Positions 142 to 53,620 of a stretch of 64,000 nt of DNA are shown here, one piece after another. Numbering within the stretch: the first letter of the stretch is position 1; the number at the start of each line of letters is the position of its first letter. The DNA lies in contig NZ_SOQX01000002.1 in the NCBI RefSeq assembly GCF_004366735.1, positions 310,001 to 374,000 of the forward strand, in the 5' to 3' direction. Origin of the DNA: Thiohalophilus thiocyanatoxydans. GTDB lineage: Bacteria; Pseudomonadota; Gammaproteobacteria; UBA6429; Thiohalophilaceae. The notes under the pieces are model-generated. The model did no database searches. It was not told where the DNA came from and saw nothing but the letters and a program-made list of their open reading frames with translations. Both the position numbers and the translations under genes were made by a program.

Positions 142-1392
142 TATAAAGTGGCCATCGCCGGCACCGGCTACGTCGGTCTCTCCAACGCCATCCTGCTGGC
201 CCAGCACAACGAGGTTGTCGCCCTGGACATCGATCCGGAAAAAGTCGAACTCATCAATGCGCGCAAATCCCCGATCATCGACACCGAGATCGAGGACTAC
301 CTGGCGAACAACAACCTCAACCTGCGCGCCACGCTGGACAAAAACGAGGCCTATCAGGACGCCGACTTCGTCATCATCGCCACCCCGACCGACTACGACC
401 CGGTAACCAACTACTTCAACACCAGCACCGTCGAGTCCGTCATCGCAGACGTCCTGGCCATCAACCCCGACACCACGATGGTCATAAAATCAACAGTACC
501 CGTAGGGTACACAGCCGGGTTAAAGTCTGAAGATTTCCGACTTCCGACTTCCGATTGCGACCTGAAAAATGTGAGTCTGTTTTTTTCACCAGAATTCTTG
601 AGAGAAGGTAAAGCACTACACGATAACCTCTACCCCTCGCGCATCATCGTTGGCGAACAATCCGAGCGGGCCGAAACGTTTGCCAACCTGCTCAGGCAGG
701 GCGCGGTAAAAGAAGACATCCCGGTGCTGTTCATGAACAGCACCGAAGCCGAAGCGGTCAAACTGTTTGCCAACACTTATCTGGCCATGCGGGTCGCCTA
801 CTTCAACGAACTGGACACCTACGCCGAGACCCATAACCTCGACACCCGGCACATCATCGACGGCGTCTGCCTGGATCCGCGCATCGGCAGCCACTACAAC
901 AATCCCTCGTTTGGCTACGGCGGCTATTGCCTGCCCAAGGACACCAAGCAGCTGCTGGCCAATTACCAGGATATTCCCGGTAACATCATCCAGGCCATTG
1001 TCGATGCGAATACCACCCGCAAGGATTTTGTCGCCGACAGCATCCTCAGGCGACTCAACAACACATCCCCTCTCCCTCAGGGAGAGGGCAAGGGAGAGGG
1101 GATATCAAAGCAGAAAACCGTCGGTGTCTACCGCCTGGTCATGAAAAGCGGCTCCGACAACTTCCGCACCTCCGCCATCCAGGGCGTGATGAAGCGAATC
1201 AAGGCCAAGGGCATCGAAGTCGTCGTCTACGAACCGGCGCTGGAAGATGACAACTTTTACAACTCCCGCGTCATCAAGGATTTGAACGAATTCAAACAAA
1301 CCTGCGACATCATCATCGCCAACCGCCGGTCAGAAAACCTGACCGATGTCGCAGACAAGGTATACACGCGGGATCTGTTTAACAGCGACTAG
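109..1392 (+). CDS. ugd: UDP-glucose 6-dehydrogenase
   Basis: Oxidises UDP-glucose to UDP-glucuronate in the cytoplasm, a precursor for the polysaccharide encoded downstream. The Rossmann motif AGTGYVG lies at about residues 17-23, and the catalytic cysteine is Cys274 in [13 protein letters not shown]. The body aligns closely with the roughly 388-residue enterobacterial Ugd, but this protein has 427 residues. The excess is a repeat-encoded N-terminus (about 12 residues), a short insertion at about residues 140-151 made of TTCCGAC heptamers, and about 18 residues (near 320-337) encoded by a G-rich palindromic repeat. The usual Met-Lys-Ile start has been lost, so the ATG in the array at 109 is the likely start. 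No strong Shine-Dalgarno sequence is visible. Confidence 0.95.
531..556 (-). repeat. In-frame heptamer array inside ugd
   Basis: Three units of TTCCGAC (minus strand AGTCGGA) lie within the coding sequence. They encode about eight residues that the E. coli Ugd sequence lacks between the KSTVPVG and FSPEFLREG motifs. The reading frame is kept. Confidence 0.75.
1066..1102. repeat. G-rich palindromic repeat inside ugd
   Basis: A 37-bp palindrome, CCCCTCTCCC then GGGAGAGGG twice, lies in frame in ugd. Close relatives occur at 6003-6041 (tviB-like gene), 46160-46250, 47800-47905, 48470-48565 and 51580-51676 (pheT). It encodes a Pro/Gly/Glu-rich loop. Confidence 0.85.
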
Positions 1393-4833: not shown

Positions 4834-6194
4834 GCTTCAGCATTAATAATGCGAAGCTCGCGATCATTGGCCTCGGCTACGTCGGCCTCCCCCTGGCCGT
4901 GGAATTCGGAAAAAAACAGCCCGTCGTCGGCTTCGACATCAATGCCAAACGCATCGCGGAACTGCAGCGCGGCCATGACGCCACCCTGGAAGTGGATAGC
5001 GACGAACTGTCACAAGCCGGGCAACTGAGTTTCACCAGTAATATCGATGACCTGGCCCAATGCAATGTCTACATCGTCACCGTGCCAACTCCCATCGACG
5101 AGCACAAACGCCCCGATCTGACCCCGCTGATCAAGGCCTCCGAGACCATCGGCAAAGTGTTAAAAAAAGACGACATCGTCATCTACGAATCCACCGTCTA
5201 CCCCGGCTGCACCGAAGAAGACTGCGCCCCGGTTCTGGAAAAATATTCCGGGCTAACTTATCTCCATGCTGCCAACTGCCAACTGCCAACTGCCGACTAC
5301 GCTCAACCAACTGCCGGCTTTTATTTAGGTTACAGCCCCGAACGCATCAACCCCGGCGACAAACAACATCGCGTGACCACCATTAAAAAAGTCACTTCCG
5401 GTTCCACCCCGGAGATCGCCGAGTTTGTCGATAACCTCTACGCCGGCATCATCACCGCCGGCACCCACAAGGCGTCCAGCATCAAGGTGGCCGAAGCGGC
5501 CAAGGTCATTGAAAACACCCAGCGCGACGTCAACATCGCCCTGATCAACGAGCTGGCCATTCTGTTTAATAAACTGGGTATCGATACTCTGCAGGTTCTT
5601 GAAGCTGCAGGCACCAAATGGAACTTCCTGCCGTTTCGTCCCGGCCTGGTCGGCGGCCACTGCATCGGTGTCGATCCCTATTACCTTACCCACAAGGCCC
5701 AGACCGTCGGCCACCATCCCGAGATGATCCTGGCCGGCCGCCGGCTCAACGACAACATGGGCGCCCACATCGTCTCGCAACTGGTCAAGGCCATGCTCAA
5801 AAAACGCATCCAGGTCGAGGGCAGCCGGATACTGGTTATGGGATTTGCTTTCAAGGAAAACTGCCCCGATCTGCGCAACACCCGTATCATCGATATCGTA
5901 CAGGAGCTGAAAGAGTACAACGCCACGGTGGATGTCCACGATCCCTGGGTCGATGCGGATGAAGCCCGGCACGAATACAACCTCGAACTACTCACAAAAC
6001 TTCCCTCTCCCCCCGGGGGAGAGGGCCAGGGAGAGGGGGAGTCCAGCCCCTACGACGCCATCATCATCGCCGTCGCCCATGACCAGTTCAAAAAAATGGG
6101 ACCGCAGGCCATACGCTCACTCGGGAAAGAAAACCATGTCCTGTACGACATCAAATACCTGCTGCCTCCCGAAGAGTGTGACCTACGTTTATAA
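4797..6194 (+). CDS. tviB: UDP-N-acetylhexosamine (GalNAc/GlcNAc-type) 6-dehydrogenase, TviB/WbpO-like
   Basis: NAD-dependent nucleotide-sugar dehydrogenase giving a UDP-HexNAc-uronic acid. GLGYVG is at residues 25-30 and the catalytic cysteine is Cys289 in [13 protein letters not shown]. The match to TviB extends through [24 protein letters not shown] and the C-terminal end. At 465 residues it is about 40 longer than TviB. The excess is a repeat-coded N-terminus (about 18 residues), a GCCAACT heptamer insertion (near residues 157-172) before [11 protein letters not shown], and a G-rich palindrome insertion (about 403-415). No clear ribosome binding site precedes the ATG. Exact substrate is uncertain. 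Confidence 0.92.
5269..5298 (-). repeat. In-frame heptamer array inside the tviB-like gene
   Basis: Three GCCAACT units plus one GCCGACT (minus strand AGTTGGC) encode a short insertion, part of about 15 extra residues compared with TviB, just before the conserved [11 protein letters not shown] block. Confidence 0.85.
6003..6041. repeat. G-rich palindromic repeat inside the tviB-like gene
   Basis: CCCTCTCCCC then GGGGGAGAGGG and GGGAGAGGGGG. It is the same family as 1066-1102 and is again in frame, adding a Pro/Gly/Glu-rich loop before the last conserved block. Confidence 0.85.
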
Positions 6195-44195: not shown

Positions 44196-46121
44196 ATGCC
44201 TACTGTTTCCCTGCCTGACGGCAGTCAGCGCGATTATGCCAATCCCGTTACCGTTGCCGACGTGGCCGCCGATATCGGCGCCGGTCTGGCCAAGGCCGCT
44301 CTGGCGGGCAAGGTCGACGGCAAGCTGGTGGACACCTCCTACAAGATCGATCACGACGCCGAGCTGGCCATCGTCACCGAGCGGGACGAGGACGGGCTCG
44401 AGGTCATTCGCCACTCCACCGCCCATCTGCTGGCCCAGGCGGTCAAGGAGCTGTTTCCGGACGCCCAGGTGACCATCGGCCCGGTGATCGAGGACGGCTT
44501 CTATTACGATTTCGCCTACGAAAACGGTTTCTCCGAGTCGGATCTGGAGAAGATCGAGCAGAAAATGGCCGAGCTGGCCAAACAGGACATCCCGGTCGAG
44601 CGCACGGTGATGCCACGCGAGGAGGCGGTCGAGTTCTTCCGCCAGATGGGCGAGGAGTACAAGGCCAAAATCATCGAGGACATCCCCAAAGGCGAAGAGC
44701 TGTCGCTCTATCGCCAGGGCGACTTTATCGATCTGTGCCGCGGCCCGCACGTGCCCTCCACGGGCCGGCTCAAGGCGTTCAAGCTGATGAAACTGGCCGG
44801 CGCCTACTGGCGCGGCGACTCCAAGAACGAGATGCTGCAGCGGGTCTACGGCACCGCCTGGCCGGACAAGAAGCAGCTCAAGGGCTATCTGCATCGCCTG
44901 GAAGAGGCCGAAAAGCGCGATCACCGCAAGCTGGGCCGCCAGCAGGACCTGTTCCATACCCAGGAAGAGGCGCCGGGGATGGTGTTCTGGCACGACAAGG
45001 GCTGGACGCTGTATCAGCAGGTCGAGCAGTACATCCGCGCCAGGCTGCGCGAGCACGATTACGAAGAGGTCCGCACCCCGCAGGTGGTGGACCGCTCCCT
45101 GTGGGAGAAGTCGGGCCACTGGGACAAGTTCCAGCACATGATGTTCACGACCGAGTCGGAGGACCGCCATTACGCAGTCAAGCCGATGAACTGCCCCTGC
45201 CACGTGCAGATCTTTAACCAGGGGCTCAAGAGCTACCGGGATCTGCCGCTGCGCATGGGCGAGTTCGGCTCCTGCCACCGCAACGAGCCTTCCGGCACGC
45301 TGCACGGGCTGATGCGGGTGCGCGGCTTTACCCAGGACGATGCGCACATCTTCTGCACCGAGGATCAGATCCAGCCGGAGGTCTCGGCGTTTATCGATCT
45401 GTTGTTCGAGGTCTACCGCGATTTTGGCTTCGAGGAAGTGCTGATCAAGCTCTCCACCCGCCCCGAGCAGCGCGTGGGCTCCGACGAGGTCTGGGACAAG
45501 GCCGAGCACGCCCTGGAGCGGGCCCTGAACGACAAGGGCCTGGAATGGGACCTGCAGCCGGGCGAGGGCGCCTTCTACGGGCCCAAGATCGAATTCTCGC
45601 TCAAGGACAGTCTGGGTCGGGTCTGGCAGTGCGGGACCATCCAGGTGGACTTCTCCATGCCGGGACGGCTGGGCGCCGAGTACGTGGGCGAGGACGGCGA
45701 CCGCCATACCCCCGTCATGCTGCACCGGGCGATCCTGGGTTCGCTGGAGCGGTTTATCGGGATTCTCATCGAAGAATACGCCGGCGCCTTCCCGGCCTGG
45801 CTCGCCCCCGAGCAGGTGGTGGTGATGGGAATTACCGACAAACAGGCCGAAACGGTCAAAAAGATCGAAAAAACCTTGCGCGCAAGGGGCTTGCGGGCCA
45901 AAGCTGACTTGAGAAATGAGAAGATCGGCTTTAAAATCCGGGAACATACGCTACAGCGCATTCCCTATCTGCTGGTCATCGGGGATCGGGAAGTTGAAAA
46001 TTCTACTGTGGCCGTGCGCACGCGAACCGGCGAGGATCTGGGCAGCATGCCCCTCGATGAATTCATCGGGCACCTCGAACAGGAAATCGCGAGCCGCGGC
46101 CGTAGTCTTTTAGAACAGTAG
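44196..46121 (+). CDS. thrS: Threonyl-tRNA synthetase
   Basis: A 641-residue class II synthetase charging tRNA-Thr. The TGS domain occupies residues 1-65, the editing domain has [17 protein letters not shown], and the catalytic core has the zinc-ligand block [25 protein letters not shown] and the anticodon domain begins near [20 protein letters not shown] precedes the ATG by 8 bp. It leads the classical thrS-infC-rpmI-rplT-pheST-ihfA cluster. Confidence 0.98.
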
Positions 46122-46289
46122 CCAGGGACGAGTTACGAGGGACGAGGTTTTATTCCCTCCCCCTGATCCCCTCCCTGAGAGAGGGGGTTGGATCTTTGCG
46201 ATACGCAAGATCATTCCCTCCCCTACAAGGGGAGGGTCAGGGAGGGGTGATAGAATATCCTCGTTACTCGTAACTCGTCCCTCGTACCT
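46122..46289. repeat. Inverted-array element around G-rich palindromes, between thrS and infC
   Basis: Left arm AGGGACG, AGTTACG, AGGGACG units (46122-46148); right arm inverse (46259-46289). The core has TCCCTCCCC-type palindromes on both sides of GATCTTTGCGATACGCAAGATC. Related cores with GATCTTGCTAATCGCGAAGATC lie at 47830-47854 and 48501-48525. The element starts one base after the thrS stop. Confidence 0.9.
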
Positions 46290-47669: not shown

Positions 47670-47905
47670 AGGGACGAGTTACCAGGGGCCTGGTGCCAGG
47701 GTTTTGCCGGGACTGATTTTATATCACCCCTCTCTGGCCCTTCGGGCAGGGACGAGGTACGAGTGACGAGGAGGGTTTGCTGGGGCTGATTTTCTATCAC
47801 CCCTCCCTAACCCTCCCCTTGAAGGGGAGGGAATGATCTTGCTAATCGCGAAGATCGGTTCCCCCTCCCGCAGGGAGGGGGTTAGGGGGAGGGGATAAAA
47901 AACAA
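47670..47905. repeat. GACGAGG arrays and G-rich palindrome unit, left of the DUF559 gene
   Basis: AGGGACG/AGTTACC units (47670-47705), then a unit TATCACCCCTC, GGCCCTTCGGGCAGGGACGAG (split) with heptamers (47751-47776), then palindromes CCTCCCCTTGAAGGGGAGG, GATCTTGCTAATCGCGAAGATC (as two halves GATCTTGC and GCGAAGATC) and CCCTCCCGCAGGGAGGG. The same unit recurs at 48306-48565 and in pheT. 47563-47669 holds an ACAAAGACTCGAAG-like fragment and no gene. Confidence 0.88.
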
Positions 47906-47983
47906 GCCCTGGCACCCAGTACCTGGTATCTACCTGTAGGGTTATAGGAAAAAGGTTCGAAATACGTTTTCATGGAGGAAAAC

Positions 47984-48358
47984 ATGAGCTTTAGGATGCT
48001 AGCTAGACGATTGCGAAACAACTCGACTGATGTCGAACGATTGTTGTGGGAATATTTACGTAAGCAGCAGCTAGATGGGTATAAATTTCGCAGACAGGTT
48101 GTCATTGAACCCTATATTGTCGACTTTGCCTGTTTTGAGGCAAAACTGATCATCGAACTTGATGGTGGACAGCACCAACTTGAAGAAGAAAAGGATCGAG
48201 AAAGAGACGAGTTTCTGAAAAGATGTGGCTATATCGTTCTGCGGTTTTGGAATAACGATGTAATAAACAACATTGAGGGTGTAATCGAAGCAATTCGATT
48301 TCATTTGATCACCCCTCCCAGGCCCTTCGGGCAGGGGCGAGGTACGAGGGGCGAGTAA
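47984..48358 (+). CDS. DUF559 protein (Vsr/PD-(D/E)XK-like endonuclease fold)
   Basis: A 124-residue DUF559 protein, related in fold to very-short-patch repair endonucleases. LRNNSTDVERLLWEYLR, YKFRRQVVIEPYIVDFAC, AKLIIELDGGQHQ and VLRFWNNDV are the family blocks; the acidic-lysine-like core is Asp in VDFAC, Glu and Asp in IIELDGGQH. GGAGGA precedes ATG 47984; ATG 47972 is an alternative. The last ~15 codons and the stop are made of the surrounding repeat. Repeat units of one family lie on both sides. Confidence 0.92.
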   Translation: MSFRMLARRLRNNSTDVERLLWEYLRKQQLDGYKFRRQVVIEPYIVDFACFEAKLIIELDGGQHQLEEEKDRERDEFLKRCGYIVLRFWNNDVINNIEGVIEAIRFHLITPPRPFGQGRGTRGE

Positions 48359-48565
48359 CAAGTGTATTGCTGGGGCTGAATTTTATCACCCCTCCTTGGC
48401 CCTTCGGGCAGGGACGAGGTACGAGGGGCGAGTAACAAGGTGTATTGCTGGGGCTGAACTTTATCACCCCTCCCTAACCCTCCCCTTGAAGGGGAGGGAA
48501 TGATCTTGCTAATCGCGAAGATCGGTTCCCCCTCCCGCAGGGAGGGGGTTAGGGGGAGGGGATAT
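48306..48565. repeat. Tandemly duplicated GACGAGG/G-rich palindrome unit, right of the DUF559 gene
   Basis: A unit of about 78 bp (ATCACCCCTCC, GGCCCTTCGGGCAGG, CGAGGTACGAGGGGCGAGTAA split, TGTATTGCTGGGGCTGA) occurs twice (48306 and about 48385), then the full palindrome core runs from 48463 to 48565. The core is nearly identical to that at 47800-47905. Confidence 0.9.
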
Positions 48566-49635: not shown

Positions 49636-50117
49636 AGCCTCACCGCAGAGACGCAGAGGGCGCAAAGAAAAAATTATATAAAGTTGGTAGATGACAGTTT
49701 GTAGTTGGCAGAATATAAAAGTTCTTAGTTCTTAGTTCTTAGTTCTTAGTTCTTAGTTCTTAGTTCTTAGTTCTTAGGACTATTTGTTGTAGGAGGGGCT
49801 TGTAGCCGCGACTTGTTGAATTTCGGCAGGTCGCCGATGGGTCGCTTACGGCGTGTCTCATAGAAACCCTTTGGGTTTCATTATGAGTACCCTACCTATC
49901 TCCGATAGGTCAGGGCACCATGCCTACCGCGACAGAGCCCACCCCGCGAGTAAGGCGAGTGTTTTGGGTGGTTGCACTTCCATGTGCTTCAATCGCCTCC
50001 CACAGGTCCTTTGGGTATATATCCAAGGATAAACATTGTGATTCGATGGATTCGGGTGTGATACAAAAAATAATTTTCTTCTCTACGCTCTCTACGCTCT
50101 CTGCGTCTCTGCGGTAA
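49636..50117. repeat. Repeat block separating pheS and pheT
   Basis: Outer inverted arms of a GCAGAGACGCAGAGG-type repeat (49641-49665 and 50082-50117) enclose AGTTGGC units, linker AGAATATAAA, about eight AGTTCTT units (49720-49778), TATTTGTTGT, a REP half (49788-49815) and an inverse REP half (49988-50006), with small hairpins such as GAAACCCTTTGGGTTTC. No gene is present. Confidence 0.88.
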
Positions 50118-50133
50118 AAAATGAGATTACATC

Positions 50134-52755
50134 ATGAAATTCAGTGAAAAATGGTTACGCGAGTGGGTTAATCCCGATATCGATACCGAGGCGCTGGCGC
50201 ATCAGTTGACGATGGCCGGGCTGGAGGTGGATGCGATCGAGCCGGTGGCCGGGGCCTTTGACAAGGTGGTGGTCGGCGAGGTGATCGGGCTGGAACCCCA
50301 TCCCGATGCGGACAAGCTGCGCGTGGCGACGGTGAATGTCGGTGCGGACGAGCCGCTGCAGATCGTTTGCGGCGCGGCCAATGTGCGCGAGGGCCTCAAG
50401 GCGCCGACGGCGCTGGTCGGGGCGAAGCTGCCGGGCGATCTGAAAATCAAAAAATCCAAGCTGCGCGGCGTGCCGTCGCAGGGCATGCTCTGCTCCGAGA
50501 AGGAGCTGGGGCTGGCAGACAGTGCCGAGGGGTTGATGGAACTGCCCATTGATGCGCCGGTGGGCGAATCGATTCGCGACTATCTGCAGCTGGACGATGT
50601 GACTATCGAACTGGGGCTGACCCCCAACCGCGGCGACTGTCTGAGCGTGGCGGGGATCGCCCGGGAAGTGGGTGTGCTGAACAAACTGGCGGTCGAAGGG
50701 CCCGAGCCCGGCGAATGCGCCACGCCGATCAAAGACACATTGAACGTGACGCTGGAAGCCGCCGGGGCCTGTCCGCAATACGCCGGGCGGCTGTTGCGAG
50801 GAATTAATCCACAGGCCGGGACGCCCCTGTGGCTGGCCGAGCGGCTGCGTCGCAGCGGCCTGCGCAGCCTGGGCCCGGTGGTGGATGTGACCAACTACGT
50901 GCTGCTGGAGCTGGGGCAGCCGATGCATGCCTTCGATCTGGGCAAGCTGCGCGGCGGCATCCAGGTCCGCTATGCCGACGCCGGTGAATCCCTGACTTTG
51001 CTGGATGAGCAGACCATTGAGCTGGATAGTGAGACGCTGGTGATTGCCGATGAGACCGCGCCGGTGGCGCTGGCGGGAATCATGGGCGGTGCCGACTCCG
51101 CCGTGGGCGAGGGGACGGTCGATATTTTTCTGGAGAGCGCGTACTTCGCGCCGCAGGCTATCGCCGGCAAGGCGCGGGGCTATGGCCTGCATACCGACTC
51201 CTCGCACCGCTTCGAGCGGGGGGTGGACCCGCAGCTGCAGGTCCCGGCGCTGGAACGGGCCACGGCGCTGCTGCAGGCCATCTGTGGCGGTGAGGCGGGG
51301 CCGGTGGTCCATGTCCAGCAGGCCGATCAATTGCCTGTCAGAGCGCCGGTGAGGCTGCGATATGCCCGAATCGGCCGGATTCTCGGGGCGGACATTGCCG
51401 GGGACGCGGTGGTCGATATTCTGACGCGTCTCGGGATGGTGGTCCAGCCGGCCGATAGTGACGAGGATGGCCCTTCGGGCAGTGACGAGGGACGAGGGAC
51501 GAGGGACGAGGATCGATCACCCCTCCCTGGCCCTTCGGGCAGTGACGAGGGACGAGGGGCGAGGGGCGAGGATCGATCACCCCTCCCTAACCCTCCCCTT
51601 GAAGGGGAGGGGATGGAGCGGGGAGCCGATCAGATTATTCCCCCTCCCGCAGGGAGGGGGTTAGGGGGAGGGGATCAAAAAACCTCTTCGGCCGAGATAA
51701 TCTGGGAGGTGACGCCGCCGTCGTTTCGGTTTGATATCAATCTGGAGGTGGATCTGATTGAGGAGCTGGGGCGGATCCACGGGTATGACAATCTGCCGGC
51801 CAGTCGGCCGCGGATTACGCTGGCGATGGGGGAGCGGCCGGAATCCCGTCGGCCGGCGGGGCATTACAAGCGGTTGCTGGTGGATCGGGGCTACCAGGAA
51901 GCGATTACCTACAGCTTTGTGGATCCGAAGCTGCAGCAACAGCTCGATCCGCAGGCCGGGGCCCTGCAGCTGGCCAATCCGATCTCGGCCGACATGGCGG
52001 CGATGCGCACCTCGCTCTGGCCGGGATTGCTGCAAACTGCGCTATATAACTTGAATCGTCAGCAGGATCGGGTATTATTGTTCGAGCAGGGTCTGAGGTT
52101 TGTTTTCCAAGGCGCTGAATTAGAACAGGAACCGGTACTCGCGGGTTTGTTGTCCGGGCCGTTGCAGCCACCGCAGTGGGGCAGCGCCACCCGCCAGGCC
52201 GACTTTTACGATTGCAAGGGACACGTTGAGCAGTTGCTGGCACAGACAGGGAACGCCGATCAATTCCGCTTCGACGCCGATGAGACCCACCCGGCGCTGC
52301 ATCCCGGCCAGGCGGCCGTGATATTGCGCGAGGGCAGGCCGGTCGGGCGTCTGGGTGCGCTGCATCCGGCGTTGCAGCAGTCGCTGGGGCTGGCGCAGCG
52401 GGTCTATCTGTTCGAGATTGCCCAGGCCGCGCTGGCCGACCGCCGGCTGCCGGCGTTCGCGCCGCTGTCGAAATACCCGTCTATTCGTCGGGATATTGCC
52501 ATCGTGCTGGATGAGGTCATATCCGCGCAGAAAGTCAAGGATTGCATCGAAAAAGCGGGCTCCCAGCGCCTGGCAAACATCGAGCTGTTTGATGTCTATG
52601 TGGGCGAAGGTATTGATTCTGGAAGAAAAAGTCTGGCTCTGGGCTTGACCTTGCAGGATCTTTCACGCACTCTTAAGGACACAGATGTCGAGAGCGAGAT
52701 CAGCACGATACTGACGGCGCTGAATCGCGAACTTGGGGCTACACTTAGAGAATAA
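50134..52755 (+). CDS. pheT: Phenylalanyl-tRNA synthetase beta subunit with repeat-encoded insertion
   Basis: An 873-residue protein; usual length is about 795. The N-terminus [18 protein letters not shown]-like segment [22 protein letters not shown] and the C-terminal ferredoxin-fold anticodon domain ([19 protein letters not shown]) are intact. Residues about 447-515 are Asp/Gly/Arg/Pro-rich low-complexity sequence encoded by AGGGACG heptamers and G-rich palindromes. They lie in the B5 domain loop between LTRLGMVV and the conserved block [18 protein letters not shown]. The frame is kept, and the gene is presumably essential, so the insertion must be tolerated. Confidence 0.97.
51471..51676. 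repeat. Repeat unit inserted in frame in pheT
   Basis: Two copies of GGCCCTTCGGGCAGTGACGAG (split: GGCCCTTCGGGC, AGTGACGAG) with AGGGACG heptamers, ATCACCCCTCCC, then the palindromes CCTCCCCTTGAAGGGGAGG and CCCTCCCGCAGGGAGGGGG. It is the same unit as at 47724-47905 and 48306-48565, but the central GATCTT palindrome is replaced. Confidence 0.93.
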
Positions 52756-53403: not shown

Positions 53404-53410
53404 ACCAAAG

Positions 53411-53620
53411 GGCCGAGTTACGAGGGACGAGTGACGAGGTCCGCCCGATACCGCTTCGCTTTATCGGGCCTACATACTCGTCCCTGCGTCCGGAGGACGC
53501 CGGGGAGCGGGCTACGACCGCGACAAACCTTTCCACCCGCACAATCCACGCGCCGAAGGCGCTCCCAACAGTTTACGGGACAGGGTGTTTTTCCTCGTCC
53601 CTCGTAACTCGTCCCTTGGC
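53411..53620. repeat. Inverted GACGAGG arrays enclosing two REP-type repeats
   Basis: Left arm AGTTACG, AGGGACG, AGTGACG (53411-53440); right arm inverse (53588-53620). Inside lie the palindrome CCCGATACCGCTTCGC, TTTATCGGGCCTAC (53447-53477) and a REPIN-like pair GGGAGCGGGCTACGACCGCG and CGCCGAAGGCGCTCCCAACA (53502-53572). Confidence 0.85.

Follow-up and report, generated by a model that had tools for sequence, protein, structure and literature searches.

YcjD-like DUF559 nuclease genes lie between intrastrand triplex repeats across bacterial phyla and are candidates for the enzyme that spreads them

The window analysed here is a stretch of 64,000 nucleotides from Thiohalophilus thiocyanatoxydans (contig NZ_SOQX01000002.1). 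On its forward strand, at 47972-48358, lies a gene for a 128-residue DUF559 protein, a YcjD-like PD-(D/E)XK nuclease by its Pfam match and conserved residues; the next ATG of the frame is at 47984. The protein matches the DUF559 profile (PF04480) with E=5.5e-43 and 145.7 bits against a gathering cut-off of 20.6, its only other Pfam match is MTES_1575, and the E, D, E-x-D and H residues are invariant across 45 aligned DUF559 proteins, the window protein included. The Vsr profile (PF03852) does not match the window protein, and its genome contains no Vsr match at all. One full repeat unit lies upstream of the gene (47795-47897, + strand) and another downstream (48462-48564, + strand). The two had been described in an earlier note as near-identical; they are direct copies that agree at 103 of 103 nucleotides, and the next-best copy in the genome reaches 94% identity. 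The same note had placed the last codons and the stop in the repeat, and indeed the C-terminus is encoded by repeat DNA, 48312-48358 running through a truncated repeat start (ATCACCCCTCCC...) and a heptad tract. Two such truncated starts (ATCACCCCTCC...) with heptad tracts span 48312-48440 (+) and overlap the 3' end of the gene. The gene-free units reported earlier are also present, one on the opposite strand between thrS and infC (46148-46252, found in the sister species as well) and one on the forward strand in-frame within pheT (51575-51681), where the sister species has only a heptad tract.

Each unit consists of two halves, left and right, separated by a short spacer palindrome, and each half is a hairpin with a third arm similar to its own purine arm. 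In the upstream unit, the motif scan places a left pyrimidine-purine-purine triplex motif at 47801-47831 (- strand) and, beyond the short spacer hairpin, a right triplex motif at 47861-47892 (+ strand) with its third strand toward the gene; a relaxed scan finds the motif in both window units. The 104-nt unit is predicted to fold as three hairpins closed by paired tails (z=-5.9 against dinucleotide shuffles), and since its two third arms are able to pair together, a single strand of this length would form three hairpins on one stem. The window repeats are the known intrastrand triplex motifs BoxC/PIT/TM_ECO, an identity overlooked by the earlier note, which also missed the same arrangement at E. 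coli ycjD and the cassettes inserted in-frame in other genes. BLAST finds 59 places in the 2.9-Mb genome, of which about 22 are longer than 60 nt and the other approximately 35 are mostly left halves. A second DUF559 gene of this genome (C1:408837) starts within a CTCTCCC-type repeat copy and has the repeat upstream only.

Intergenic regions in this genus are dense with repeats of several unrelated families. Heptad tracts of the ACGAGGG/ACGAGTA type lie just outside many units, those on one side being inverted relative to those on the other (window 46117-46147, 48410-48440, 51481-51571, 53409-53439 and others), and an AGTTCTT heptanucleotide tandem repeat occupies 49720-49789 in the gap between pheS and pheT. 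Two more CTCTCCC-type triplex motifs are found at window 1068-1099 and 6003-6036, far from the DUF559 gene. The sister genome (G274) was considered as a clean empty site and set aside: its pheT lacks the unit and retains the heptad tract, but its intergenic sites are too rearranged, the orthologous regions differing completely between the two species.

The arrangement was followed through 80 named DUF559 loci from many phyla, a survey for flanking repeats that the earlier note had proposed and whose outcome agrees with the REP/RAYT-like arrangement it had described, namely a nuclease gene, flanking repeats and gene-free copies. When the upstream flank was compared with the reverse complement of the downstream flank, 65 of 76 loci scored above the 99th percentile of control windows taken farther out (n=332), with a median score of 27 against 9; one of these 65 positives (L078) owes its score to runs of N and is to be discounted. 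A motif scan, whose thresholds were picked after these repeats had been seen so that far bins and Vsr loci form its fair comparison, finds a pyrimidine-purine-purine motif no more than 200 nt from the gene at 68 of 79 loci; its density is 7.3/kb over the first 100 nt and 0.08-0.10/kb beyond 500 nt. GC-rich hairpins follow the same course: their density is 7-11/kb up to 100 nt from the domain and mostly 0.3-1.5/kb at distances above 400 nt. In the hairpin nearest to the gene, it is usually the third arm that lies on the gene side (58 v 9 upstream, 50 v 11 downstream), and the commonest layout is hairpin-tail>gene<tail-hairpin. Repeat copies occur in 33 of the 35 named genomes with DUF559, up to 172 in one genome, the pattern counting about 80-170 copies in Azospirillum, Roseomonas or Luteimonas, and the exact TM_ECO consensus has 44 matches within the named loci. 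One flank (L025) is GGATTCCGGCCTCCGCCGGAATGACGG, a CGTC-type REP look-alike that coexists in the same genome. Two further assignments were tried and dropped: the Caulobacter CIR repeats are no more than a lead, with GANTC absent from the flanking repeat aligned at locus L108, and PADLOC gave only weak partial matches to defence systems.

Vsr genes served as the main control. In the 274 gammaproteobacterial genomes that provided the DUF559 loci of this class, 30 Vsr genes were taken, and the flank excess seen at 21 of 28 DUF559 loci was found at none of the 30 Vsr loci (Fisher p=3.5e-10); the triplex motif was present at 25 of 31 DUF559 loci and again at 0/30 Vsr loci. In a viral collection, the motif accompanied 8 of 15 close DUF559 relatives and 0 of 18 distant phage-type DUF559 genes; two annotated phage records carry DUF559. 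The two zero counts indicate that the link to the repeats is specific to the YcjD-like subfamily. The association of YcjD-like DUF559 genes with triplex repeats is specific, oriented and shared across phyla. Stable hairpins close to gene ends might also be read as transcription terminators, or as GC-rich clutter that happens to lie near a small gene. The Vsr loci, together with windows farther out at the DUF559 loci themselves (0/77), rule this out for practical purposes; the hairpins also have no T-run, a backwards-pattern control is near zero, the repeats occur in-frame within coding genes, and PIT motifs showed no terminator activity (Holder et al., 2015; PMC4666352). What chance is left for terminators or clutter is negligible.

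At the level of whole genomes, one pattern covering both repeat types was counted in the 274 gammaproteobacterial genomes. Repeats occur in 42 of 60 genomes with DUF559 and in 30 of 214 without it (odds ratio 14.3, p=2e-16), and among families with both states 16 favour the DUF559-positive genomes and 4 the reverse (p=0.012). The earlier note had held that repeats thriving in genomes without DUF559 would speak against the idea, and here the result is divided: the overall counts go with the gene, but 15 of the 214 negative genomes carry at least five copies. Among these 15, two contain DUF559 fragments and several belong to families in which relatives carry DUF559. In two genomes (G131, G215), the repeats that match the pattern occur only at their DUF559 genes.

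Flanks also match locus by locus. Genomes with two DUF559 genes can have a different repeat type at each, and in several genomes with multiple DUF559 genes a gene's own two flanks match each other best (most clearly in G215 and G091), although this is not universal, one gene each in G136 and G165 having no matching flanks. Between genomes, repeat similarity is about 0.31-0.36 for protein identities below 60%, 0.45 at 60-70% and 0.98 above 70%, the last figure resting on five pairs only, and overall, protein and repeat correlate only weakly (Mantel rho 0.11, p=0.036). Nitrospira and Candidatus Binatia share the same repeat and have DUF559 proteins that are 77% identical; Ca. Binatia carries exactly two copies, both flanking the gene, and Nitrospira carries 36 dispersed copies. 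In both, the cassette lies in-frame at the same point of hsdS, so that the DUF559 gene may have moved together with hsdS. It is conceivable that another source makes and spreads the repeats and that DUF559 acts as a nuclease of repair or resolution by which cells tolerate such replication-blocking structures, gene and repeats being co-selected. A Vsr-like fold, the persistence of repeats in some genomes without DUF559 and the published link of TM motifs to genome instability (Holder et al., 2015; PMC4666352) would suit such a role, but a tolerance factor has no need of its own repeat on either side, the two flanks of a locus agree with each other while different loci in a genome have different flanks, and gene and repeat turn up together across phyla. 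This explanation is accordingly rated as unlikely.

The E. coli DUF559 gene is ycjD, which lies between sapF and fabI, with an exact TM_ECO (BoxC) consensus between ycjD and fabI. In 3364 of 5426 genomes, one place matches the greater part of the sapF-ycjD query. In 60 evenly sampled E. coli records, a raw comparison across phylogroups gives a median of 18 motif places in the 37 records with ycjD and 4 in the 23 without it (p=9e-10). The absence of ycjD cannot be treated as a simple empty site, as in the ycjD-negative strains examined (L384, L385, L387, L388) an efflux operon follows directly after sapF and fills the place of ycjD.

Gene-free and gene-bearing copies stand at different places, and these include insertions within reading frames. 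The frame stays open across the first repeat, the DUF559 gene and the second repeat in ValS, Mfd, PriA, HsdM, HsdS, BioA, IspE and an M14 peptidase; valS is an essential gene and priA an important one, and the ValS and Mfd cassettes are both in one Rickettsiales genome. The BioA fusion aligns with residues 3-268 and then 270-438 of a solved homologue, with the insert in between, and the PriA alignment is likewise split by its insert. No intein/Hint domain was detected in the nine host fusions scanned. Two side observations concern recurrent insertion points: hsdM carries the cassette at the same place in two unrelated genomes (L127, L257), a possible hot spot or a case of shared inheritance, and the same MpaA-like M14 peptidase gene is split in-frame by a DUF559 cassette in three genomes (L087, L089, L115).

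Insertions of this kind in conserved genes resemble homing elements, and DUF559 might accordingly cut gene-free units or sites while repair from a cassette copies the gene in, the repeats being targets and homology arms instead of element ends. The window flanks, direct and 100% identical where other copies reach at most 94%, are in keeping with this, as are the strong direct repeats that flank about 15 of 76 loci. However, the layout hairpin-tail>gene<tail-hairpin is opposite to the one expected had the gene gone into the centre of a solo unit, the cassettes in host genes lie at places without a known solo unit, and homing alone does not explain how gene-free copies multiply. Homing in this form is considered doubtful, with about the same small chance as a maintenance role. 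For the typical cassette, neither the sister species nor the ycjD-negative E. coli examined offered an empty site that is clean and shows a defined duplication.

Duplications of 9 bp were found only in one genome (G032), in which three DUF559 elements that are about 97% identical have unrelated flanks and 9-bp target duplications, one of them with a mismatch. Their outer ends, AAAGGTATCTACACAA, are found as well at four sites that lack DUF559 (L278-L281), which means that a separate transposase could have moved the three elements, and the triple copy was dropped as proof of DUF559-driven transposition. Three of these four sites are directly preceded by CAAACC, and the sequence is perhaps an IS or MITE end. 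From this genome it could be argued that DUF559 is in general cargo, lodged in repeats or within IS/MITE ends that a separate transposase moves. Such outer ends were found in G032 only, the cassettes examined contain no transposase gene, and the inner triplex motifs flank DUF559 at most loci and Vsr genes at none. A passenger role is thus improbable, more so than either homing or maintenance.

On balance, the DUF559 gene and its two units probably constitute one selfish element of REP/RAYT type, in which DUF559 would cut the motif and drive its spread, a reading inferred from the arrangement of genes and repeats. The repeat is a hairpin (a-loop-a') with a gene-proximal third arm (a'') similar to a', a structure that DUF559 would recognise in single-stranded or extruded DNA and at or near which it would cut. 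Repair might then copy the repeat, or the whole repeat-gene-repeat cassette, to a new place, and the gene-free units would represent non-autonomous copies. DUF559 is in this respect the first enzyme with a good claim to spreading these repeats. There is an even chance that such elements are a class of bacterial mobile element of their own, with a Vsr-like PD-(D/E)XK nuclease that works on intrastrand triplex motifs and carries both the motifs and its own gene across most bacterial phyla, often by in-frame insertion into essential genes, and with YcjD behind BoxC/TM_ECO. A linked nuclease gene makes the source of the BoxC/PIT/TM repeats directly testable in E. coli K-12. If the reading is true, it would suggest a role for the widespread DUF559 family and could account for the Pro/Gly-rich inserts that recur in-frame in bacterial proteins.

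Several known systems can be compared with these elements. Inverted palindromes around a nuclease gene, gene-free dispersed copies and paired units that build a larger fold are shared with REP/REPIN sequences and their RAYT genes. The enzyme here is a PD-(D/E)XK DUF559 protein whereas RAYTs are HUH (Y1) tyrosine transposases, and the 103-nt unit has no GTAG head, neither GTAG nor its complement being present in it, and instead has a third arm that makes a triplex motif. Rickettsia palindromic elements (RPE) are palindromic insertions that lie in-frame in protein genes. The cassettes in valS and mfd of the Rickettsiales genome are similar to these in their habit of insertion and differ in that the insertion can carry a nuclease gene. 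CGTC-tagged REPs (PMC3733652) are likewise dispersed palindromes without a known transposase, but CGTC is absent from both strands of the 103-nt window unit, and stems and loops are unlike. DUF559 proteins have the same broad fold as Vsr, according to the published comparison for Caulobacter VsrA (PMC12907096), although the Vsr profile misses the window protein and Vsr genes are without the repeats. VsrA, itself a DUF559 protein, is reported to damage DNA in vivo and provokes an SOS response in cells that lack a cytosine methylase (PMC12907096), which supports nuclease activity. A solved structure of a DUF559 relative exists (3hrl).

The closest system is the BoxC/PIT/TM motif itself. A search of openly licensed papers with the exact repeat strings returned no paper. 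The motif has been published in more than 260 genomes by Holder et al., who also described paired motifs on opposite strands, demonstrated the TM_ECO triplex in vitro and not in vivo, observed no mobility activity around the motif and left its origin open (Holder et al., 2015; PMC4666352). Neither ycjD nor DUF559 is named in that study, which cites Bergler et al. (1992) as an earlier reference for BoxC/PIT/TM_ECO. TM_ECO is said there to be always intergenic (PMC4666352), whereas the related units and cassettes described here also lie in-frame within genes.
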